A stretch of 64,000 bases of DNA from an uncultured bacterium (lineage in GTDB: Bacteria > Planctomycetota > Phycisphaerae > Phycisphaerales > SM1A02), in the NCBI GenBank assembly GCA_903919715.1, contig CAIXJC010000010.1:62001-126000 (forward strand), written 5' to 3'. Under the pieces are notes generated by a model. That model had not been told where the DNA came from, ran no database searches, and was given only the letters and a program-made list of their open reading frames with translations. The position numbers and the translations under genes are program-made. This document shows, in pieces, positions 29,390 to 40,388 of this stretch. Position 1 is the first letter of the stretch, and each line of letters starts with the position of its first letter.

Positions 29390-32300
29390 TCAGTTGTTCG
29401 CCACCGCAGATTCGTCTGAACGTCCAATCGATTCGGCGTTCGATTCATCCCGAGTTTCTTCTTCGGCGATCACTGAATCTGCGATGCGGCCGCCCGCACC
29501 AACCTGCTCGAATCGAACGGTCACACGCTTGGAGACGCCTCGCTGTGGCATGGTGACTCCATGCAGTCTGTGGCATGCCTGCATTGTTCGTTTGTGATGT
29601 GTGATGACGATGAAGTGGCTTTGATCAAGAAAACCGCTGAGCGAATTACAGAACCGTTCGACATTTGCTTCGTCGAGCGCTGCATCAACTTCGTCCAAGA
29701 TGCAGAAGGGGGCTGGTTTGCTCTTGAAGATCGCAAGAAGAAGCGCGACGGTCGTCATGGACTTCTCACCGCCAGAGAGTTGAGTAATAATCCGCGGTTC
29801 CTTGCCGGGTGGCTTTGCTCGAATTTCGATGCCTGACGCAAGCCAGTCAATCGTTCCGTCTTCCATCGGTATCAAGTACATATCAGCGCTTCCGCCGCCA
29901 AACAAGCGCCGGAACATGCCGTTGGTTCCACCAAAGTTCTCTCGAACCATGTTGAACGTCTCTTCGAACTGGACTCGACTTGTCGCATCGAGTTCAACGA
30001 CGAGTCGCTCCAAGTGTGCCTTCGCCGCATCAATGTCCGTCAATTGGCTTGCGAGTTCCTGAGTTCGGCCTTCCAACTCAGTCAATTCTGCCATCGCGTC
30101 AAGATTGACGTTTCCAAGAGTGCGAATTTCGTCGCGCAATTGATCCGCCTCAAGTGCGGCTGTGGTGCGATCAGTCAAGACGAAAGCGCCCGATTCACGC
30201 TCAGCAAGATGGCTTGTCCAAAGCGTTTCAAGTTCGAGACCAAGTTCATCGTGCGCCTGCACGGTCAAGGTTTCCAGACGCATGGCACACTCGCGGCGAG
30301 CCAATTCAGCCTCGCTCCACTGGCGTTCCGTATCGCTCGCTGTTTCACGCAGAGTTCGCAGTGCTTCGCCGGCTGCATCATTTGCCATAACCGCCATCGA
30401 AAGCGATTGCGCCAAGTCAGCGAGTTGAACAGCGATTGCATCATGCTTCTGCTGCGCGCGTTGAGTTACCGAGCGTGATTCAGAAATGGACTCCTCAAGA
30501 GTTTCGACATGAGCTTCACGTCGGCGGAGTTGATCTTCTGCAGTCACGCGTTGCCGCCGAGATTCTTGCAGAGCGGTCTCGATCAAGATCTGCTCGCGAC
30601 GAGCGACTTGAGATCGACTCGTCGTCTCACCCAGCGCCAAGCGTGCCGCCGAGAGAGTCTCCTGAGCGTGATCCAGCACCTGCTGCCGTTCCAATGCCTG
30701 CTCGCGAGCTGACGTCGCATTCGCATCCGCCGTCGTCAACGCCTCATCGGCGATCACGAGTCGCTCGCAAATCGACGATTGCTCTTGCTGAGCCGTTTGA
30801 GCGCGCCGCGCAATTTCCGCCGCTTCAAAGCGCAAGGCGACTTGGTCGCGTTCGATTCGTGTAATCAATTGCTCGGTCCGCTCCGACTGGAATTCGCATT
30901 CAATTGCGGTTCGACGAGCGGTCTGTAGCGCCTTATCTTGTTCCGTATGCCGACCACGCGCTGCGCTTCCGAGCGCTGCGACCCGCGAAGCATCCTCTTC
31001 GATGTCGTGAATCCGCTCGCTCAGAATTTCTATCGATGCCGTTAGTTCGGTCAATTCGGCACGCCGAATAACGGAACCGCCGCTCCCGCCGCGCAAACGG
31101 CCGACGGTCACCGTTCGCAGGTGGTCGATGACTTCGCCAGAAAGCGTCACGAACCGCGCACCCGATGGTTCGCCAGCCGACAACGTTAATGCGGTTGAAA
31201 GATCGTCAACAAGCCATGTCCTTCGAAGCAGCGTGTCGATGAATCCTTGTGCACCGTCTGAGACGCGAATGACCGCTCCCAGAGGTCGGGCGCCTTGTGG
31301 ACATTCAGGTGCATCCGCACCGTGAGAATCATCGATGATCGCCGGGGCAAAAGTAACGCGGCCGTCCAATTCGCACGCATGAGCCAACACGTGAACAAAG
31401 TTTGTCGACGATTCCAACGAACCGTCGACAACGAGGCACTCAAGCCAACTTCCCAGCGCTGCTTCAACAGCGACGGCGTGTGTTCGATCCGTCGAAACAA
31501 GGTCTCCAAGCGCACCACGAATGCCAGGATATTTCTCTTCATCGCCTAGCACCGTTCGCACGGCGCCGCCCAATCCTTCGCGCGCAGACTCCATCTCCTC
31601 AAGAATGAGTCGACGGCTTTCATCTCGCGTTCGTTCGTCGCGAAGTGTCCTCAGTCTTTCACTGATCGCAACGCCTTCTTCTCCATAGGACTCAACATTG
31701 CGAAGTTCCGCCGAGACATCAGCCTGGATTTTTTCAGCAATGGTTTGCGCCTCTGCGCGACGAGTCGCAGCGAGATCTCTCGCGGTCAAATGCGTCTGAA
31801 GTTCACGGTCCTGCTCATTGGCACGAGTTGAAAGTCGCTGAGATTCAGCGCTGATCGAAGACAATCTCTCGTCAGCTGCATGTTGACGGGCAGCAAGACG
31901 AGACTTTTCGCGCTCAAGAGCAAGGTGCTCTTCTCGCCAACGCAAGTCTGCATCGCGCGCCGAAGATGCATCCGCCGCGCACTGCGCGCGCAACTCTGCG
32001 GCAACAGCATTTTGTTCTTCAGCATCCGACACTGCCTTTGCAGCGCTTTCGACTGCCAGGATGAGATCCGCAAGTTGTTCCGCATGCTGGGCAACACGTG
32101 CATCGAGTGCGCCAATCGCCGCTGCATCTTGCTCAAGAGCGCTACGAGTTTCTCCAAGCGACTGCTCGGTGAATTCGATTCGCTGCTGTGCCTGCTTGAC
32201 CGCTGACGCCGCCTCGAAACGATCGCGTTCAAGGCCTTGTTGATTCTGCATCACCAAATCCCGCTCGGACTCTCGAAGCCGCTTCGCATGCTCCGCTTCC

Positions 32301-33214
32301 TCAAGAGTTTGAGTGAGCGAATCCCGCGCAGCTTCGGCAGCAACGACTGCCTGTTCGCATTCGGTCAATTTCGAACGATGTTCGTGGTATTGGTCAAGCG
32401 TCAGTGCGGAGCGCAACGCCCGCCGCCGCGAATCGAGTTCGACAAATCGCTTCGCCTTCTCCGCTTGTCCACGAACAATGCGGAGCCGACGTTCGGCACC
32501 CGACAACTGTTCGCGAAGCACAACCAAGTTCTTCTCGGCAAGTTCTAATTTTCGTGCCGCCTCTTCCTTGCGTGCACGAAACTTAGCGACGCCTGCGGCT
32601 TCCTCAAGAATCGAACGCCGCTCAGCTGGATTTGCCTCGAGCAGTGCAGCGACTTTTCCCTGTTCAATAATCGAATACGCATCGGTCCCGATGCCTGTAT
32701 CCATAAAGAGTTCTTTGATATCGCGTAGTCGAACCTTGCGACCATTAATCAAGTATTCCGAACGACCATCGCTATACAACTTTCGCGTGACATCAACTTC
32801 GTCTGAATCGACGGGGAGCGCACGATGTCGAACCTGCCCACGACGAACGATCGTCTCATCACTTTCGATCGTTGAATCTGGGCTCTCTTCATCTGCGACA
32901 AATTCCGCATCATCTGCTGAACGAGTATCGACCGTGACGGGGGATTGGAGAACGGGGTTTGAGAAGACGAGAGATACCGATGCGCATCCCATCGGCTTTC
33001 GCACTGCGCTCCCAGCAAATATCACATCGACCATGGCGCTTCCGCGCAGACTCTTCGCGCTTCGTTCGCCGAGCACCCACTTGATTGCATCGACCACGTT
33101 GCTCTTGCCACAGCCATTGGGACCAACGATTCCGATGATGGGCTCATCGAATCGAAATTCGGTGTGATCGGCGAAGCTCTTGAAACCGTTCAGTATGAGT
33201 TTGGAAAGACGCAC
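29390..33214 (-). CDS. smc: Chromosome segregation protein SMC
   Basis: A 1274-residue SMC ATPase that compacts and segregates chromosomes with ScpA/ScpB. The N-terminal head has Walker A at about residues 32-40 (GPNGCGKSN). Long coiled coils rich in Glu, Arg and Ala follow (about 165-490 and 680-1000), flanking a central hinge domain (about 515-650, with GVLGD-like and [16 protein letters not shown] segments). The C-terminal head carries the signature [14 protein letters not shown] and Walker [16 protein letters not shown]. The GTG at 33214 is chosen because GGAGG lies five bases upstream; a TTG at 33232 has none. A disordered acidic tail ends the protein. The head has an extra insertion of about 45 residues rich in acidic residues (about 85-130). 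Confidence 0.96.
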
Positions 33215-33282
33215 TCCGACCTCCAGTCGCAACTCTGATCGACCTTACTTCCGTGAAGGTTTGCCCGAAGTGGGCGATGACG

Positions 33283-35151
33283 TTATCGAGGTACGGTAGC
33301 GGTTTTGGAGACGTTTGGATCGACTTGTCCAGAGGAAGTTGCTCCAGGTCCCAACCGAGGGGTCAGCCCAGGAACCATGGTTCCTGCGACTGCCGGCTGA
33401 TCACTTCCCGCAGATTCGTCCTCGATAAATTCTGGTCGATCGGTCCGCTCGGCCTCTGCTCCCGCCTTGGCAATCGCGGCGATGATCCGGTCCTGTTCAA
33501 CCCTGAAAGTCCCCGCGAGATAGCCATTCGATGACAAGGCGTAGAGGGCCCCAATGGTCTGGCTATACGTCATCCCTAGACCTGGTGCGGGATGGGCTGC
33601 GTCGGTGGTATGCCCTAGAAAACGGATGAGTTCCGCAATTTTAACGCTGACCTGATCAACCAAAGGGGTCGACCCTTCCGATCGGCGATAAAAGACGCTC
33701 ACAGTCTCGTCGTTGGCTTCACCTTTGAACATGAGACTTCCGCCCCAGGCACGCAAGCTCATCGGAGTCTTCAGACGCATTTCATCGTCGAAGATCGTAA
33801 TGGCTGGCTGCCCAGACTGGCTGATGTAGATCATTGGATACTTGCTCGGGACGACATCAATGCGAAACTTCTTTCCGACCATTTGGCTCTGTACGATCAA
33901 ATCTCGTCGCTCACGAAGAACCTCGTATGCGGCGAGTCGCACATCCACGTCGCTGTCGTTAAGCAGGGGGCGAAGCCCTAAATCAATCGCTGGGTTGATA
34001 CTCATCCGCTGAAGCAATCGAATTGATGGAACACGCAATTCCGCACTTCCAGATTGAGCCATCGCCAGAAGATGAGGAACGACCAATGCATCGTCGAGGC
34101 GAGCACCTGCTTGCAAGGCGGCAAAGCGCGGTTGCTCTTCGGCGTAGTCATAGAGAGGCCGGATCGCAGTGATGCTCTTGGGACCAAGCGCTTGCCAACG
34201 AAGGCTTGCCGAATTGGCTGCGCCAGGATTGTTCGTCAATGCTCGAGCAATGGCAGTGGCAGTCGCGTCGATTGGTCCAACATTGACAGATGTATGCCGA
34301 AGCAATTCGACAAATTCGTCGGAGTGTGCATACCAAGAGGGTGGCACATCAACCACAATCAATTCACCAGACATCCCAGTAGCCGTCTCGCCACGCTGAG
34401 TTGGTTCTCGCGGGTAGTTTGAATTGATTGCGCTAGCAATCAATCGAGCCCTTGAATGACTCGGCGTCGCCATGACGAGTTTGATCGGAAGTTGCTTGAG
34501 AGACTTCCCGCCGTTGAGAATTCGACCGCTCAATTGATTGACCATCGTTTGAGTTCGATCCGATTCATCCGCAAACGGATTGATGATGATTGGTCCCTTT
34601 GCTTCCGCCATCGCTCGAATTTCACGACTTCCTACGAGCAACACGCCGGGGCGCAAGTCCGTTGTCCACAGCGTTCCACCTTCGAGGCTTGTTGTGCTCG
34701 TTCCTGGCGCCGCATAGACACGCACATCAAAGTTTGTTCCGCGTGGTGCTCCAGCGGGGATAAGCGCTTCCACAATAACGATCGCGGTGTCTTCCGAATT
34801 CAGAAGAGCGTCGGGTGAGAGCCCCTGCGAATTCCCCGACGATTCACCAACGCCGTAACGCATCATCTCGTTCAATATGTATTGACGCACTTCCGCCGGG
34901 GCCGTGCGACTGCCAGTTCCTTTGAGACCAACGACAAATCCATATCCGCGAACCACGACGGGCTGATATCCCATGACGATTGTTTCACTCGCGACCGTGC
35001 CGCGCATGATGGGATCGACGTCCATCGGAATAGGTGGACGAGCGACGCGTTTGGGCGCCAAGGCTGGGTTCGCTTTTTCAATATTGGAACATGCGACCAT
35101 ATTCAGTCCGCACGTCGCGACGAGAATGAGGGAAACAAAAATCAGTCGCAT
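33283..35151 (-). CDS. FlgI-like (P-ring domain) lipoprotein with HEAT-like insert
   Basis: A 622-residue exported protein. The N-terminus is a signal peptide ending in a plausible lipobox (NMVAC, residues 17-21). Residues about 60-300 match the flagellar P-ring protein FlgI: VVVRGYGFVVGLKGTGSRTA, DTAIVIVEALIPAGAPRGTN and FDVRVYAAPGTSTTSLEGGT, then a RLIASAINSNYP block. A helical segment at about 330-420 (VVPHLLAMAQSGSAELRVPS, DSDVDVRLAAYEVLRERRD) looks like HEAT repeats, followed by a separate C-terminal domain. Real FlgI is about 370 residues and is not a lipoprotein. No other flagellar gene is in the window, so a non-flagellar ring or scaffold role is equally possible. It lies downstream of the tRNA-Val and type VII-like operon on the same strand. 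Confidence 0.65.
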   Translation of the reverse strand: MRLIFVSLILVATCGLNMVACSNIEKANPALAPKRVARPPIPMDVDPIMRGTVASETIVMGYQPVVVRGYGFVVGLKGTGSRTAPAEVRQYILNEMMRYGVGESSGNSQGLSPDALLNSEDTAIVIVEALIPAGAPRGTNFDVRVYAAPGTSTTSLEGGTLWTTDLRPGVLLVGSREIRAMAEAKGPIIINPFADESDRTQTMVNQLSGRILNGGKSLKQLPIKLVMATPSHSRARLIASAINSNYPREPTQRGETATGMSGELIVVDVPPSWYAHSDEFVELLRHTSVNVGPIDATATAIARALTNNPGAANSASLRWQALGPKSITAIRPLYDYAEEQPRFAALQAGARLDDALVVPHLLAMAQSGSAELRVPSIRLLQRMSINPAIDLGLRPLLNDSDVDVRLAAYEVLRERRDLIVQSQMVGKKFRIDVVPSKYPMIYISQSGQPAITIFDDEMRLKTPMSLRAWGGSLMFKGEANDETVSVFYRRSEGSTPLVDQVSVKIAELIRFLGHTTDAAHPAPGLGMTYSQTIGALYALSSNGYLAGTFRVEQDRIIAAIAKAGAEAERTDRPEFIEDESAGSDQPAVAGTMVPGLTPRLGPGATSSGQVDPNVSKTATVPR

Positions 35152-35213: not shown

Positions 35214-35287
35214 TGAGCGCTACAGGATTCGAACCTGTGACACCTGCCATGTAAGGGCAGTGCTCTAGCCAGCTGAGCTAAGCGCCC
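35214..35287 (-). tRNA. tRNA-Val (anticodon TAC)
   Basis: Cloverleaf on the minus strand: acceptor GGGCGCT/AGCGCTC with one G-T pair and discriminator A, anticodon stem CTGCC/GGCAG with loop CTTACAT (anticodon TAC), and T-arm ACAGG-TTCGAAT-CCTGT. CCA is not encoded. It lies between the FtsK-type ATPase and the FlgI-like gene. Confidence 0.96.
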
Positions 35288-35315: not shown

Positions 35316-38300
35316 TCACCCGCGTGGGAAGAACCCGTCAATCCATTCGCTCGGAGGCCATGCATATGGGCGAAACTTCTCTTGGCTCCCAGTTTCTTCG
35401 CTGTGCAGGATGACCCGCTGGGGACCGAGTCGGCTAGCGATCGGAGAATCGATCAGCGTGCTTGAATCCGAAGCGCTCACTTGGAAGAGCAATCGCCACT
35501 CAAATTCCCGAATCGCATTGCGGTCGAAGGTTCGCGCCAGATTCGTCGCCCCGTCACATGTGATCATGACATGAATCCCCAGAGATGGTCCTTCGCGCAG
35601 AAGTGCTGCAAGCAGCTTGTCCGCCGTTGCAGGTGTATCAGTCGACGAGGAATAACTGAAATCATCTTCATTGCGACGCAGCGAACGGAAGCGGTGGATC
35701 GCATGCACAAGAATGAGGCACGTTGGCGCTTGAGTGCTCTGGTCACTCTGTCGCCGCAGCAATTCAGCGGTCGCCTTTTCAAGAATTGATTCGGCGTCTC
35801 GCAAACCAGCAGATCCACCAGACAAGCCCAGTCGCTCTTGAAGTGCTGGAAGTCGACCGAAGTTTTCGTCGTCGGGCGGCGTGCCGTCGAGCAGGAAGAG
35901 TTGGCATTGCCCAGTTTTGTACTGCGCTGCGAGGGAGACCAACACTCCTGCTGAAATTCCAAGAGCCGCATCTTCACGCTGTCCCACAAGCATGATGTTC
36001 GTGCCAGATTGTCGGCGCAGTACAACAGCGGTGGGATCCTTGATTGAAATCGCATCGCCGAACCAAAGAAGCGGTGGGCCAGAAAACTCCCCACGATCAC
36101 GCTGCATGCGCGCTGTACGAAGGAGACGATTGGAATCCAATTGAGCAGGCGCACTTCCTTCAAACACGATCATCGGCGGACGATTCGATGTCGGATGTTT
36201 TTCGTGATACGCACGGACCTTGGCGAGCATGCGGTCGCGCTCATCATCAGGTAGCCACACAACTTGGAATGGATTGTTCCCCTCAACTAATCCACCAGCA
36301 TCGTTGTAAATCGCCTCTCCAGGGCGCGAGAGCAGACGCGCTGCAACATTGTCATCTGAGAGGATCAACTGCGAGTCTGATTCATTGCACTGCAAGGCGA
36401 TTCGAATGGCCATCTGACCCATCGTTGCGCGTGCGATGGAGTATGCGCCACCGAGCGTTTGCGATCCGAGGATGACGTGAATGCCAAATGCTCGACCCTG
36501 TCGAACCAGACGATCCAACAGCAGTGCCGACTCCTCAGAAACTTTGTCGTCCTCGGTAAAGAGCTCTTGGAATTCATCGACGACTAGCAATGTTCGTGGA
36601 ATCTTTTCCTCAGCGTTCAACCGACGATATCCACCAAGATCCTGCACTGAGCGATCACGAAAGATTTCACCACGTCGGCGGAGTTCCGCGTCAAGCCCAC
36701 GAAGCACTGAAAGGCCGAACTCTCGATCACTCTCGACCGCGACCGCTCGCGCATGCGGCAGTCGGTTGGTCGCATACGTGCGAAACTCAACGCCTTTCTT
36801 GAAGTCGATCAGCCATAATTCGGCTTCATCTGGGCTGTATCGCAAAGCGAGATTGGTGATGAGTGCATGGAGAAGAGTTGACTTTCCGGATCCCGTCTTG
36901 CCCGCGATCAATGCGTGCTGGCTCGTGCCGACACCGAGCGTAATGTTTTGAAGTCGCGTCGCTCCAGATCGTCCCAGGGGGATGCTGATCGAGCGTGCCG
37001 TGGACTCCGACCAGAGTGCGTCTTCACGGGGCGCGATCGCAGAAAAAGGAACTTCAATTCGTTTCGCATTCTTTGCGGTCAATGCGATACGCCTCAACAA
37101 CCCAATCGTCATTTCACTCTCTGGCATCACTCCTGGAGTGAAAGCAAAGTGACTATACGGCTCCGATGCGACAACGAAACGATCATCTTTCCAGTGAATA
37201 CAGAGCGAACGACTACGAATGTCGGCAATATCGATTGCCGATGGAATTGGATGACGTGTGTCGCGAAGAATGACTGTAAACACTCCACAGCGTGCTCCAC
37301 TATTGACGATGCTCGCCAGTCGAAGCGCGGCAATGTCGGACAAGCCCGTCGGGAAGTCGGCCATAACAAGGAATCGGTACGGCTCGGCTATCTCGCCCGC
37401 CTGCTTGTTGTACTGATCAAGGTCTGCGAATTCATTGCGCAGAAATTTCTGAATCACCGTCTCCATGTGTTCACACAAGTCAGTCAACTTTTGCTCGATT
37501 TGCCGTGAATCCGTCCAGATTCGCTCGCCGATGACATGTTCTGCTTCGTCGGTCAAGTGCATGAATGCGGCAAATCCCTCTCCAAGTCCGACAGGATCGA
37601 TGATCGTGAAGCGCGCACGCCCAGGTGGTAATGCCGCCAAGATTCTCAGGACAGTTTCTTGTAAGAGTGCGATCCCAGATTCACGACCCTCTTGTCCAGT
37701 CTCGATCAGCAGCGACGCCCGAGTTGGAAAGGTCAAGGTGATCGGAAGGTGAATGATTCGGGGAGAACCAGCTGGCCATGCAAGTCCTGGATCAGACGGC
37801 AACGCTCCAGGTATCGAATTGAGTGGAACCGTCAGCACTCCAATTTTTGCCGCACCAATCGATGATGGCTGGCCATGAAAATTGGACCACATTGCATCTG
37901 ACCATGCTGGGAAAAGACGGCGATCAAGGCTCATCGTCTTCTGCGTGTCTGCGAAGACTTGATCTCGCGCCTTCTGCCACTCTGATCGCAGCGCCTGCTC
38001 GCGAGCAACCTGCACGCCTTCGATTTCCCTCATACGTCCTTCATGCCGCCGCTTCTCTTCCATGAGCGATTGGTCATATTGACTGTGTGCCTGTTCGAGT
38101 GCAACCGTGGCGGTTTGTTCCGCTTCCGAAATGGCGGTTTCAAGTTGAGCCACCGAATTCCGCCGAAAGCGACTTGCCGTTTCAAGCATGTCTGCACGGC
38201 GCTGCGTAAAGAGACTCTCAACTTCACTCCGCTTGGGATCCAGTGCAGTCTGAGCCAATTCACGCTCATTGCGATGCTTATTTCGAAATGCTCCTTCCTG

Positions 38301-39266
38301 CTGCTTCCGCCGCTCGGAGGCTTGCGCTAATGCGAGTCGTCCAGCCTCACTCGTCACCGCTCCAACTGTCGAGACCGAAACGGCCAAGGGGTAGAGGCGA
38401 ATTCCAGACCAGAGCCAAATCGCGCCTTGCACCAGCAGCACGAGCACAGCGACACCCGATGCGATACGAAGATCGCGTGGACCGTTCTCTCCGAATATCA
38501 GGCCGATGGAAACAAGGATGGAGGACGTCAACAGCAACCACGCCGCCAGATGCCCAGCCCAATTTCGTGCGATTAAATCAAACGGTTTCTTCCGAAGCTG
38601 CTCGAGCGTTGCACAAGCCTGCGCATATTGCTCCCCAAGAGACTCCGTTGGTTGTTGAATCGAATGTGACAATTCACTTGTCGACGAAGCCGTGCTTGAC
38701 GGCAATCGAATGCGTGCCTTTCGAAGCAGCATTTCAATCTGCTTTACTTTCTCAGTGATGTCACGCAAAGATTGATCAATCGCAGCGCGAGCGACTTCGA
38801 ATTCCTGGCGCGGTCGAGGCTCGAGCGATTCATATACTGCGTCTGCGGTCCATGTCGACTCCTCCGTGCTCAGATCAATCTTGTCGAGCTGGGTGTCACG
38901 GAATTCTTCCAAGGAGCGAAGACTCAACCGTTCATTTTCGTCCAACTTTGCAAGTTGCCTCTGAGATCGAATTTCAGCCTCAGACTTTGCAGCAGCCTGT
39001 CGAGCGATGATCGCCTCACGCACCGCACTTCGCACGCCTTTCAAACGAATCAGTTCCGCTTCATGCCTGCGGAGTTCCGGGTCATTTGACTCCAACAAAA
39101 ATTTCGCGAGTGACTGCTCTGCTTCCAATCGCCGAGTGGGAGCAGTCATGAGGGTCTGCAGAATTTGCTCCCCGAATGACGAGAGGTCTTGACCTCGAAG
39201 TGCGAATTCATCCGTGATCGACGGCGCCATCTTTGAATCATAAGACAAATGAACTTCTCCGATCAC
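35316..39266 (-). CDS. Membrane-anchored FtsK/SpoIIIE-type ATPase, EssC/EccC-like
   Basis: A 1316-residue protein resembling the motor ATPase of type VII secretion. Residues about 40-225 are charged coiled coil, two transmembrane helices follow (about 233-256 and 266-290), and a second coiled coil spans about 305-440. Then come three FtsK-like domains: about 510-715, with no Walker A; about 755-1000, with a perfect Walker A (AGKTGSGKST, 789-797) and Walker B (TLLVVDEFQEL, 892-902); and about 1040-1300, where VGQREDAAL replaces the P-loop. One active and several degenerate domains is also the EccC/EssC arrangement. The start is uncertain: GTG at 39266 directly follows the preceding stop, TTG at 39248 has GGAGAAG upstream, ATG at 39230 is third. 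It is last in a four-gene operon with WXG-like proteins. Confidence 0.85.
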   Translation of the reverse strand: MIGEVHLSYDSKMAPSITDEFALRGQDLSSFGEQILQTLMTAPTRRLEAEQSLAKFLLESNDPELRRHEAELIRLKGVRSAVREAIIARQAAAKSEAEIRSQRQLAKLDENERLSLRSLEEFRDTQLDKIDLSTEESTWTADAVYESLEPRPRQEFEVARAAIDQSLRDITEKVKQIEMLLRKARIRLPSSTASSTSELSHSIQQPTESLGEQYAQACATLEQLRKKPFDLIARNWAGHLAAWLLLTSSILVSIGLIFGENGPRDLRIASGVAVLVLLVQGAIWLWSGIRLYPLAVSVSTVGAVTSEAGRLALAQASERRKQQEGAFRNKHRNERELAQTALDPKRSEVESLFTQRRADMLETASRFRRNSVAQLETAISEAEQTATVALEQAHSQYDQSLMEEKRRHEGRMREIEGVQVAREQALRSEWQKARDQVFADTQKTMSLDRRLFPAWSDAMWSNFHGQPSSIGAAKIGVLTVPLNSIPGALPSDPGLAWPAGSPRIIHLPITLTFPTRASLLIETGQEGRESGIALLQETVLRILAALPPGRARFTIIDPVGLGEGFAAFMHLTDEAEHVIGERIWTDSRQIEQKLTDLCEHMETVIQKFLRNEFADLDQYNKQAGEIAEPYRFLVMADFPTGLSDIAALRLASIVNSGARCGVFTVILRDTRHPIPSAIDIADIRSRSLCIHWKDDRFVVASEPYSHFAFTPGVMPESEMTIGLLRRIALTAKNAKRIEVPFSAIAPREDALWSESTARSISIPLGRSGATRLQNITLGVGTSQHALIAGKTGSGKSTLLHALITNLALRYSPDEAELWLIDFKKGVEFRTYATNRLPHARAVAVESDREFGLSVLRGLDAELRRRGEIFRDRSVQDLGGYRRLNAEEKIPRTLLVVDEFQELFTEDDKVSEESALLLDRLVRQGRAFGIHVILGSQTLGGAYSIARATMGQMAIRIALQCNESDSQLILSDDNVAARLLSRPGEAIYNDAGGLVEGNNPFQVVWLPDDERDRMLAKVRAYHEKHPTSNRPPMIVFEGSAPAQLDSNRLLRTARMQRDRGEFSGPPLLWFGDAISIKDPTAVVLRRQSGTNIMLVGQREDAALGISAGVLVSLAAQYKTGQCQLFLLDGTPPDDENFGRLPALQERLGLSGGSAGLRDAESILEKATAELLRRQSDQSTQAPTCLILVHAIHRFRSLRRNEDDFSYSSSTDTPATADKLLAALLREGPSLGIHVMITCDGATNLARTFDRNAIREFEWRLLFQVSASDSSTLIDSPIASRLGPQRVILHSEETGSQEKFRPYAWPPSEWIDGFFPRG

Positions 39267-39488
39267 TCAATCGCCTGCATCACAGTCGCGCCGCGCCCGA
39301 GCGATTGCCTCGGCAAGTTGTTCAATGGCAAGGATGGCGACCCGAACAGCATCACTGGCGGGCTGAACTGCCTCCCGATCGATCGAATCGCTCGCCGCGT
39401 CTCTCCATTCTGGCCGAAGAGCAGCCCACTGTTCATTCAGCACCCGCAATGTGTCCTTGATTTTTGATTTGTTTGTCCCGTCACTCAT
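39267..39488 (-). CDS. Small helical W-x-D protein of the type VII-like operon
   Basis: A 73-residue protein made of two predicted helices joined by EWRD (W28). Trp at a turn followed by one residue and then Asp resembles the W-x-G turn of WXG100 substrates, and the WRD sequence is shared with the WXG100-like protein encoded two genes upstream. The ATG at 39488 is chosen because it overlaps the stop of the preceding gene (ATGAGTGA, 8 bp); a longer in-frame reading would overlap that gene by 71 bp. The TGA abuts the GTG of the FtsK-type ATPase. It may be a chaperone or second substrate; this is inference from size and context. Confidence 0.7.
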   Translation of the reverse strand: MSDGTNKSKIKDTLRVLNEQWAALRPEWRDAASDSIDREAVQPASDAVRVAILAIEQLAEAIARARRDCDAGD

Positions 39489-40104
39489 TTGGATCGGCTC
39501 CAGCAAGTGAATCCGATCCGCCGCGGCGCATCGCAGATGCCGAGTCGGCATCGATCAGCGGCTTGGATACTCCATCGTCAGATCCGAGCGCCCCACCGAT
39601 GGACGGATCGACTTTTTCCGGTGATATTGAAATGTACGAATCAATGGCCTGCGCCATTCGATTCAGCGATACCACCGCCGCGGGGACAATTTGATCGACA
39701 TAGGTCGAGAGGGGCCCCAGACCCGCTCGAAACAGAGCGAGCACCCGCTGGTACTCGATTGCCCAACGGCGCAATTGACGAAGGCAATCTTCAGCGTGTT
39801 GAACGGCGCGCTCCGAACGGGTGACCGCCTTGCGTTCATCGACCGTCGAAGGCGGGCGTCCGTCAGCCGTCATCTGCATCTGTTTGCGCACAAGCGCAGA
39901 GCGATCGATGTTTAGTTTTTCAGTTCGAACGCGCCGTTGGCGTTCCCAGTGAGCTGGACCCTCGACATTCAACCACATTGCGAATCGCTCCGCATCCGAT
40001 TGTGATTCCTCGATCGCTGTTGCGAAGCCTCGACCAGCTTTGATCAGCATTGCCTTCGCCTCCATCAAGGTTCTGGTGTCGCGAAGATTTGCACCCGAGT
40101 CCAT
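39481..40104 (-). CDS. Helical coiled-coil protein of the type VII-like operon
   Basis: A 207-residue, almost wholly helical protein without signal peptide or transmembrane helix. It has two Trp-containing helices (AMWLNVEGPAHWERQRRVR), a charged central coil with many Arg, and a C-terminal helix (IVPAAVVSLNRMAQAIDSYI) before a disordered Ser/Gly/Asp tail. I do not recognise a named family. It lies between the WXG100-like gene (11 bp gap upstream) and the small W-x-D gene (8 bp overlap downstream), so it belongs to the operon. Size and helicity would fit an adaptor, chaperone or longer ESX-type partner. Those are guesses from context. Confidence 0.7.
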   Translation of the reverse strand: MDSGANLRDTRTLMEAKAMLIKAGRGFATAIEESQSDAERFAMWLNVEGPAHWERQRRVRTEKLNIDRSALVRKQMQMTADGRPPSTVDERKAVTRSERAVQHAEDCLRQLRRWAIEYQRVLALFRAGLGPLSTYVDQIVPAAVVSLNRMAQAIDSYISISPEKVDPSIGGALGSDDGVSKPLIDADSASAMRRGGSDSLAGADPNE

Positions 40105-40115
40105 GAAATGCTCGT

Positions 40116-40388
40116 TTAGCGCTGTTGGAGATATTCATCGATGCGGTCTGCCTTGCGCATCAGAAATGGAATGTGCTCTTCGCTCGATTTCATTAAGCGT
40201 TGCAGGACCTTCAGTGTCTGGTCGAACTCCTCTGCAAACTTCTGCTGCTCCTGATCCCGCCACGATTGAGCAAGCGTGTTCATCCGACCGCCGATTGTCG
40301 AAATGCCCGACTGCAAGTCTTGGTTGAATTTGCGTAAATCAGCGGCGAAACGACGAAGTTCATTGGGATCGACAACTGCTTTTGCCAT
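40116..40388 (-). CDS. WXG100-like small helical protein (type VII secretion target)
   Basis: A 90-residue protein with the size and layout of WXG100 (EsxA/ESAT-6) proteins: two long amphipathic helices (about 8-38 and 46-88) with a central turn SWRDQEQQKF at residues 42-51. The Trp (W43) is in the canonical place; the turn is W-x-D rather than W-x-G. A helix-2 F-x-E-x-F pattern (KFAEEF) follows, as in many family members. Such proteins are secreted as dimers by FtsK-type ATPases, and one is encoded three genes downstream. The gene heads the operon, with only 31 bp to the divergent dehydrogenase start. Confidence 0.85.
   Translation of the reverse strand: MAKAVVDPNELRRFAADLRKFNQDLQSGISTIGGRMNTLAQSWRDQEQQKFAEEFDQTLKVLQRLMKSSEEHIPFLMRKADRIDEYLQQR

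Follow-up and report, generated by a model that had tools for sequence, protein, structure and literature searches.

A WXG100–ATPase four-gene set in planctomycetes, a putative reduced relative of type VII secretion

The window analysed here is a 64,000-nucleotide stretch of contig CAIXJC010000010.1 (assembly GCA_903919715.1), from an uncultured planctomycete of the Phycisphaerales lineage SM1A02. On its minus strand lie four tightly packed genes that encode a WXG100 protein, a helical protein referred to below as p207, a diverged small WXG100-like protein, p73, and an FtsK/SpoIIIE-type ATPase (Table 1). From the WXG100 gene to the ATPase gene, the spacing is an 11-bp gap, an 8-bp overlap and 0 bp. 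A first-pass annotation, made from the sequence alone, had described a minimal type VII (ESX/Yuk)-like secretion operon at this place, and the open reading frame coordinates agreed to the base with the positions, strand and spacing that it gave.

Table 1. Features of the four-gene set, in window coordinates (TM, transmembrane).
Feature	Position	Strand	Remarks
WXG100 protein, 90 aa	40116..40388	-	PF06013 36.6 bits; W43-x-D45; C-terminal tail strongly conserved
p207, helical protein, 207 aa	39481..40104	-	AlphaFold2 model; proposed carrier/partner
p73, diverged WXG100-like, 73 aa	39267..39488	-	invariant W21, W28-x-D30; NCBIfam TIGR03930 E 0.0038
FtsK/SpoIIIE-type ATPase, 1316 aa, GTG start	35316..39266	-	PF01580 115 bits
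Two ATPase TM helices, residues 240-258 and 268-286	38409..38549	-	hydropathy
ATPase-like domain 1, without Walker A, conserved DP.GLG..F	37032..37769, limits approximate	-	likely equals EccC DUF domain
Walker A, middle ATPase domain, GKTGSGKS, residues 789-796	36879..36902	-	
Walker B, middle ATPase domain, DEF, residues 897-899	36570..36578	-	
ATPase domain 3, degenerate	35316..36134, limits approximate	-	weak TIGR03928 match, positions 924-970, E 0.034

The arrangement recurs well beyond the window. Fifty-eight loci were collected by scanning GTDB contigs for exact short peptides, which does not yield an even sample; by their labels they are mostly planctomycetes, with two Lentisphaerae, one Verrucomicrobiia and one Akkermansia-labelled metagenome-assembled genome. 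Profiles located the order WXG100–p207–p73–ATPase at 39 of the 58 loci, or at 39 of the 41 with enough upstream DNA, with all four genes on the same strand and a span of at most 3 kb between WXG100 and the matched start of the ATPase. At 17 of the remaining 19 loci the contig stops upstream of the ATPase, and at L036 and L043 the small genes are absent from more than 6 kb upstream of it. Since the order recurs on one strand at so many loci, the four-gene set is not a chance arrangement. Gene listings gave no further gene common to the lineages beside the set (no search was aimed at EccB, EccE, mycosin, EsaA or EssA), and the other gene families common to many loci were judged from the same listings to be overlapping frames or lineage-specific neighbours. 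The first-pass annotation had also considered that the operon might be conserved only together with DNA-translocation genes; the neighbours are not of that kind. The alignments used below (A1–A5, with 28, 28, 36, 30 and 43 rows) were hand-picked from loci holding the gene concerned, and the L037 row of A3 apparently starts in the wrong frame.

In a survey of 294 Planctomycetota genomes, matches to WXG100 were found in 40 genomes, to the ATPase in 41, to p207 in 40 and to p73 in 40, with up to 18, 2, up to 11 and up to 20 candidates scored per genome, respectively, and many genomes scored only in part. All four genes were present in 39 genomes and none in 252; the four-gene system is a minority trait. 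Incomplete sets were seen in G107 (WXG100 and ATPase) and in the fragmented G219 (ATPase and p73). The count of complete sets omits a weak p207 match that is the only one in G283 (5.3e-4, in a 769-aa frame), as well as second matches in G289 (weak p207) and in G110 and G232 (weak, partial WXG100). When four match-free genomes (G002, G034, G127 and G287) were rechecked, p207 and p73 were both absent. The four genes form a single cluster in 25 of the 39 complete genomes and do not in 14. Six of these 14 may reflect contig breaks, since an ATPase match lies roughly 600 bases or less from where a contig stops (G076, G139, G124, G280, G271 and G279), and the other eight look truly dispersed over two to four places (G251, G216, G152, G105, G137, G194, G087 and G024). 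In G105, the genes lie at 0.23, 0.71, 1.94 and 2.66 Mb of one 6.76-Mb contig. Because the genes co-occur even when dispersed, in eight of the 39 genomes, the link between them appears to be functional and not only positional. G076 has ATPase matches on two contigs, C126 (L149) and C138 (L099), and one set of small genes (C160, L150). The Verrucomicrobiia locus L052 comes from genome G294, and a parallel survey of that genome's phylum gave a WXG100 match in 16 of 288 genomes. One of the 16, G492, was of an island type considered below; the surroundings were read for four of the other 15 (L142 and L145–L147), and each of these four had the complete set.

The 90-aa protein scored above the PF06013 gathering cut-off of 27.3 bits, and all 28 aligned members matched this family at E ≤ 0.01. 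Judged by these profile matches it is a true WXG100 protein, as the first-pass annotation had claimed, and the absence of WXG100 similarity that it had named as a ground for rejection was not observed. The turn carries W-x-D in all 28 rows and W-x-G in none. The alignment is gap-free over 90 matched residues with 20 invariant positions, including D7-P8, W43-x-D45, P74, L76, R78-K79-A80 and Y86, and a stop codon follows straight after the matched residues in all 39 loci listed. The window's own genome contains a single WXG100 match at E ≤ 0.001. Against solved structures, the WXG100 profile matched best to HP0062 of Helicobacter pylori (3FX7/2GTS; E 1.5e-10 for 3fx7), and structures of EsxB and EsxA came next. 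HP0062 has WRD at its bend, and PMC3397514 describes it as clustering with an FtsK/SpoIIIE protein. It thus resembles the planctomycete protein in its W-x-D turn and is its nearest solved WXG100 relative, likewise of no assigned function.

The second small protein, p73, fell below the PF06013 gathering cut-off (14.2 bits), and its profile gave nothing specific among solved structures. However, because 22 of 30 p73 relatives match PF06013 at E ≤ 0.1 (best 1.1e-4), all 30 carry W-x-D, and the p73 profile in turn weakly detects WXG100 frames (13.6–23.4 bits, at eight loci), p73 is best read as a shortened, diverged second WXG100 protein. The W-x-D motifs that had been pointed out in both small proteins at the outset are therefore invariant.

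The remaining small gene encodes p207, for which lengths range from 167 to 243 aa in 36 aligned rows, with no long toxin-like extension. It had been annotated as helical with structure prediction recommended, and in the AlphaFold2 model (mean pLDDT 83, pTM 0.58) p207 is a long hairpin of two antiparallel helices, residues 10–76 (67 residues) and 88–160 (73 residues), with a low-confidence tail. No Pfam match was found for p207 at E ≤ 0.01. Searching 36 members against Pfam returned only four unrelated families, one member each, and no LXG similarity, and the p207 profile matched nothing specific among solved structures.

The ATPase begins with an N-terminal coiled region, followed by the two TM helices, a coiled stalk and three RecA-like domains, of which the first and third are degenerate and the middle one looks active; Walker A (GKTGSGKST) and Walker B (DEF) are present in the middle domain only. 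The best NCBIfam models were those of EccCb (TIGR03925, 115.2 bits), EccCa (TIGR03924, 110.7 bits) and EssC (TIGR03928, 102.8 bits), and the FtsK model scored well below these, at 32 bits. Against solved structures, the ATPase profile matched best to EccC (4nh0, E 1.4e-32), EccC5 (7np7) and YukB (9qks), and the middle domain aligned with chain residues 276–461 of 4nh0, 493–669 of EccC5 and 651–845 of YukB. Foldseek with a 1117-residue model of the ATPase (mean pLDDT 82) placed EccC/EssC structures in the top eight positions, ahead of FtsK (E 3.7e-29 for 4nh0). A profile match to apolipoprotein A-I covers a coiled stretch and was taken as compositional. No FHA domain was found among the Pfam matches of the ATPase at E ≤ 1.

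Positions 440–659 of the EssC model match the middle domain of the window ATPase, and positions 924–970 weakly match the third domain (Table 1). In the portion of PMC11154593 that describes EccC, the DUF is a dead ATPase domain preceding the active D1, and D2 and D3 are degenerate. From the order of the EssC matches and this description, we infer that the window ATPase most likely has the composition DUF-D1-D2 and lacks D3. Compared with EccC and EssC (4nh0, 7np7 and 9qks), it has the same TM pair and stalk and the same succession of a dead DUF-like, an intact and a dead ATPase domain, but only three ATPase-type domains, probably without the last domain of EccC.

Rates of change differ strikingly among the four proteins. 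Over 13 close loci, the median identity to the window was 95.6% for WXG100, 67.6% for p207 and 60.3% for the ATPase, compared with 86.8% for RpoD (12 loci), 88.9% for L28 (9), 77.6% for SMC (11) and 75.7% for DnaG (11). Third codon positions of the WXG100 gene are 41–62% identical among the close loci. Twelve loci have both WXG100 and RpoD; WXG100 identity is the higher of the two in 10 of them and the lower in L010 (81 versus 86%) and L056 (80 versus 85%). Distant WXG100 rows are 41–56% identical to the window, and distant ATPases 33–40% over their full length, so the contrast narrows with distance, and the extreme conservation of WXG100 holds for the window's own lineage. Such slow change would be unexpected in a secreted weapon and suggests that the protein has a core job instead.

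Relatives of a different kind occur on plasmids and islands. A tblastn search with the ATPase against 72,556 plasmids returned 626 records, none covering 80% of the query. Four of these were read: Caballeronia pSBC2-5 and plasmids of Rhodococcus AH-ZY2, Helicobacter sp. NHP19-012 and Deinococcus SJTR, with profile matches of 232.8–536.5 bits for the ATPase and 26.6–83.8 bits for WXG100. The Deinococcus plasmid ATPase has no Walker A pattern. With WXG100, tblastn at E ≤ 0.1 matched 2 of the 72,556 plasmids and 0 of 50,697 phages, and missed the Helicobacter and Deinococcus plasmid copies found by profile. Further island relatives are second copies in G508 and G297, and G492. The gene order at the Caballeronia, Helicobacter, G508 and G297 loci is similar to that of the four-gene set, and longer proteins occupy the p207 slot in the plasmid and island relatives. 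After the Caballeronia set come genes with CARF, VWA, PP2C and kinase annotations. The second WXG100–ATPase islands of G508 (L141, 6666-17003) and G297 (L143, 5616-17004), which lie apart from the four-gene copy, are Caballeronia-like, with VWA, PP2C and kinase-like neighbours named by eye; islands of this type are perhaps an intracellular conflict system.

Homology of each slot protein to p207 was assessed against two sets of 500 shuffles, one plain and one heptad-keeping. It was supported for Deinococcus (0 of 500 in both shuffle types) and for Rhodococcus, where a 314-aa protein starts with p207-like helices (23.4 bits, 0 of 500 in both), and was borderline for Caballeronia (1 and 2 of 500). 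The Helicobacter slot protein was rejected as a p207 homologue (-1.6 bits, with 375 and 378 of 500 shuffles scoring as high). The plasmid proteins of about 76 aa agree well with the small proteins by position only: the Helicobacter one reached 5.8 bits against the WXG100 profile, a score attained by 0 of 500 shuffles, and 2.2 bits against the p73 profile (attained by 9 of 500), and shuffles scored as high in 4 and 6 of 500 cases for Rhodococcus and in 52 and 15 of 500 for Caballeronia.

These relatives bear on the possibility that the planctomycete set is a type VII system that exports toxins, with its effector genes located elsewhere in the genome. The slot protein of Helicobacter sp. NHP19-012 does contain a WHH nuclease domain (44.6 bits, cut-off 25.1) and is followed by an SMI1/KNR4 gene, and the p207-like start of the Rhodococcus protein points the same way. 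However, the Helicobacter protein lacks similarity to p207, the window's own genome has one WXG100 match, second copies of p207 or WXG100 are rare and weak (G289, G110 and G232) in the survey, which scored no more than 11 p207 candidates per genome, and WXG100 shows no effector-like diversification. We consider toxin export improbable.

A tree of the ATPase was built from 41 rows, comprising the window, four named loci and 36 of the 40 other genomes with an ATPase match; G079, G219, G271 and G279 were left out as short or broken, and G076 was represented by C138 only. Families f30, f15, f68, f72, f1 and f78 form one clade each (support 93 for f78 and at least 97 for the others), that is, six of the seven families with at least two members are monophyletic. 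The exception is f52, with three changes, two of them forced by starred branches. The four Verrucomicrobia/Lentisphaerae rows cluster together. The planctomycete form thus looks mostly vertically inherited, with a few transfers possible. The set is present in only 4 of 15 surveyed genomes of the window's taxonomic order, the window's included, so loss would have been common.

The genes flanking the window operon (smc, a FlgI-domain gene, an aldehyde dehydrogenase gene, rpoD and dnaG) are each present in 11 to 13 of the 13 closest loci and were not seen at the more distant loci listed. The smc gene, at 29390-33232, is also near the four-gene set. At L147 (7001-16617 in G548, a genome from the Verrucomicrobiia-centred survey), the ATPase, p73, p207 and WXG100 genes lie near an smc-like gene on the same strand. 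A 622-aa protein at 33283-35151 (-) matches FlgI over residues 60–291 only (79.7 bits). Immediately downstream of the ATPase gene is a tRNA-Val gene (35214-35287, -); the neighbours scanned are housekeeping genes, without integrases. Transfer RNA genes are common integration sites. This tRNA gene, the patchy spread, the plasmid relatives and the FtsK/SpoIIIE domain would all fit a mobile element or a DNA-translocating module of the FtsK or conjugation type, as would the phrase "mobile versions of T7SS" (type VII secretion system) in a table footnote of Zhang et al. (2012; PMC3482391). Such an element is nevertheless very improbable here: the housekeeping flanks are retained among the closest loci, six of the seven families form single clades, the FtsK model scores below the EccC models, and WXG100 matches by tblastn are scarce on plasmids and lacking on phages, though two profile-found plasmid copies were missed by that search.

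The reading that we favour, to which we give close to an even chance, is that of a four-component, membrane-anchored relative of type VII systems, made up of a motor and a cargo complex and exporting into or across the inner membrane. WXG100, p73 and p207 would form a helical bundle, like the LXG–Lap1–Lap2 or PE–PPE complexes, and the conserved WXG100 tail would dock on the C-terminal dead ATPase domain. Six ATPases may then close into a ring that drives the bundle through or into the inner membrane by way of its own TM/stalk pore, without EccB/D/E or EssA/B/EsaA. In planctomycetes the product would be the bundle itself and not a toxin. In favour of this reading are the WXG100 homology of both small proteins, the EccC-type ATPase, the co-occurrence of the four genes, the TM hairpin in most of the aligned ATPases, the conservation of WXG100 among close loci, p207 proteins free of toxin-like extensions and a make-up like that of LXG–Lap1–Lap2. 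An Omp85 protein is present in the window's genome, so an outer membrane is likely, as had been expected from the first-pass annotation, and the bundle may stay in the periplasm.

Several results weigh against this reading, besides the limits to WXG100 conservation given above. The ATPase scores are far below the curated cut-offs of the EccC and EssC models (347 bits for TIGR03925, 509 for TIGR03924 and 778 for TIGR03928); the earlier identification of an EccC/EssC-type ATPase with two TM helices and three domains thus stands as to its layout and its nearest models and folds, and falls short as to these cut-offs. A search of the genome, which is 94% complete, for YukC/EssB and YukD/EccD gave 0 matches at E ≤ 0.001, and the Bacillus subtilis control was positive; this extends to that genome the lack of EssB and EccD originally remarked on at the locus. 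The export motif YxxxD/E was found within the last 30 residues of 0 of 28 WXG100, 0 of 30 p73 and 1 of 36 p207 proteins, and FxxxD in none of the three kinds of tail. Foldseek with the p207 model returned 658 matches at E ≤ 10, none of them at E ≤ 0.001, and no specific relative; most of the 50 matches listed are long helical proteins, coiled coils among them.

Of all results, the missing TM hairpin weighs most heavily against a reading as secretion alone. At a hydropathy threshold of 1.2, 22 of the 28 aligned ATPases have the hairpin where it was expected, and it is cleanly absent, in frame and with the other domains kept, in L014, L016, L028, L030, L033 and L050. At the same threshold, the TM pair upstream of the active site is absent in six of the seven plasmid and island ATPases, and L143 has two weak segments. 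These absences, the CARF, VWA, PP2C and kinase genes beside some of the plasmid and island cousins, and the slow change of WXG100 among close relatives, which fits a fixed internal part, are consistent with a non-secretory machine, in which the bundle would serve as an adaptor or scaffold inside the cell or at the inner membrane face, for example in a chaperone function or in envelope or chromosome organisation. However, a second set of ATPases, which is not independent of the first (at least six rows are shared: the window, L052, L041, L020, L032 and G169, whose contig corresponds by length to that of L040), had at least two hydrophobic segments at the hairpin position in 33 of 36 evaluable rows, one in two rows and none only in the truncated G280, and the nearest folds are secretion ATPases. 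We regard a non-secretory machine as rather unlikely, and secretion by the four-gene machine as plausible but unproven.

The four-gene system does not belong among type VII secretion systems proper: two companion proteins were looked for and not found, the ATPase scores stay below the curated cut-offs, and the export motif is lacking in the WXG100 and p73 proteins. It is a WXG100/EccC-derived variant that was already mentioned once in print in 2012. Table 1, footnote 6 of Zhang et al. (2012; PMC3482391) refers, for planctomycetes and verrucomicrobia, to solo WXG proteins with a YueA-like ATPase that has three HerA/FtsK domains and activity in the middle one only. The lineages, the WXG protein and the single active domain agree with the present system, and to that extent the novelty implied by the first-pass annotation has to be given up; the four-part make-up was not found described. 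The footnote makes no mention of p207, p73, the co-occurrence of the four genes or the conservation of WXG100. It calls these systems mobile, whereas the four-gene form looks mostly vertical, and its remark fits the plasmid and island forms better than the planctomycete form.

In make-up, the set also resembles the LXG–Lap1–Lap2 complexes of T7SSb, in which, as outlined in a section of PMC9600955, a long helical domain of about 200 aa stands beside two small helix-turn-helix proteins. Both thus combine one long helical and two small proteins. Unlike LXG effectors, the planctomycete set has no toxin domain that could be seen and no FxxxD, and its likeness to them is one of make-up. Literature searches, in which subscription papers were mostly not covered, found no paper dedicated to a planctomycete WXG100 system and no description of the four-part make-up, the unlinked co-occurrence or the slow change of WXG100. 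Sutcliffe reportedly noted WXG100 systems in other phyla in 2011.

A broader version of the favoured reading, which we put forward tentatively as a possibility, is that the set represents a type VII-like engine with a housekeeping role and no toxin, at work in bacteria with two membranes, and that its four obligate partners make up the simplest WXG100 machine known. One motor, equipped with a TM/stalk ring of its own, would act on a single slowly evolving WXG100/p73/p207 bundle, which would itself be the product. Since the engine would even run without the membrane anchor in a few lineages, the pairing of WXG100 and motor may both predate secretion and extend beyond it. The toxin-carrying plasmid systems would then be offshoots in which the p207 slot has been turned into a weapon. 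The 2012 remark on mobile systems becomes testable, with a chromosomal, toxin-free form set apart from the plasmid forms, and an explanation is called for of why, in 10 of 12 close relatives, a WXG100 protein of 90 residues surpasses the main sigma factor in conservation. The type VII motor is normally studied buried in a complex of many proteins, and the four-gene version would offer a minimal system for the pair of WXG100 and motor.

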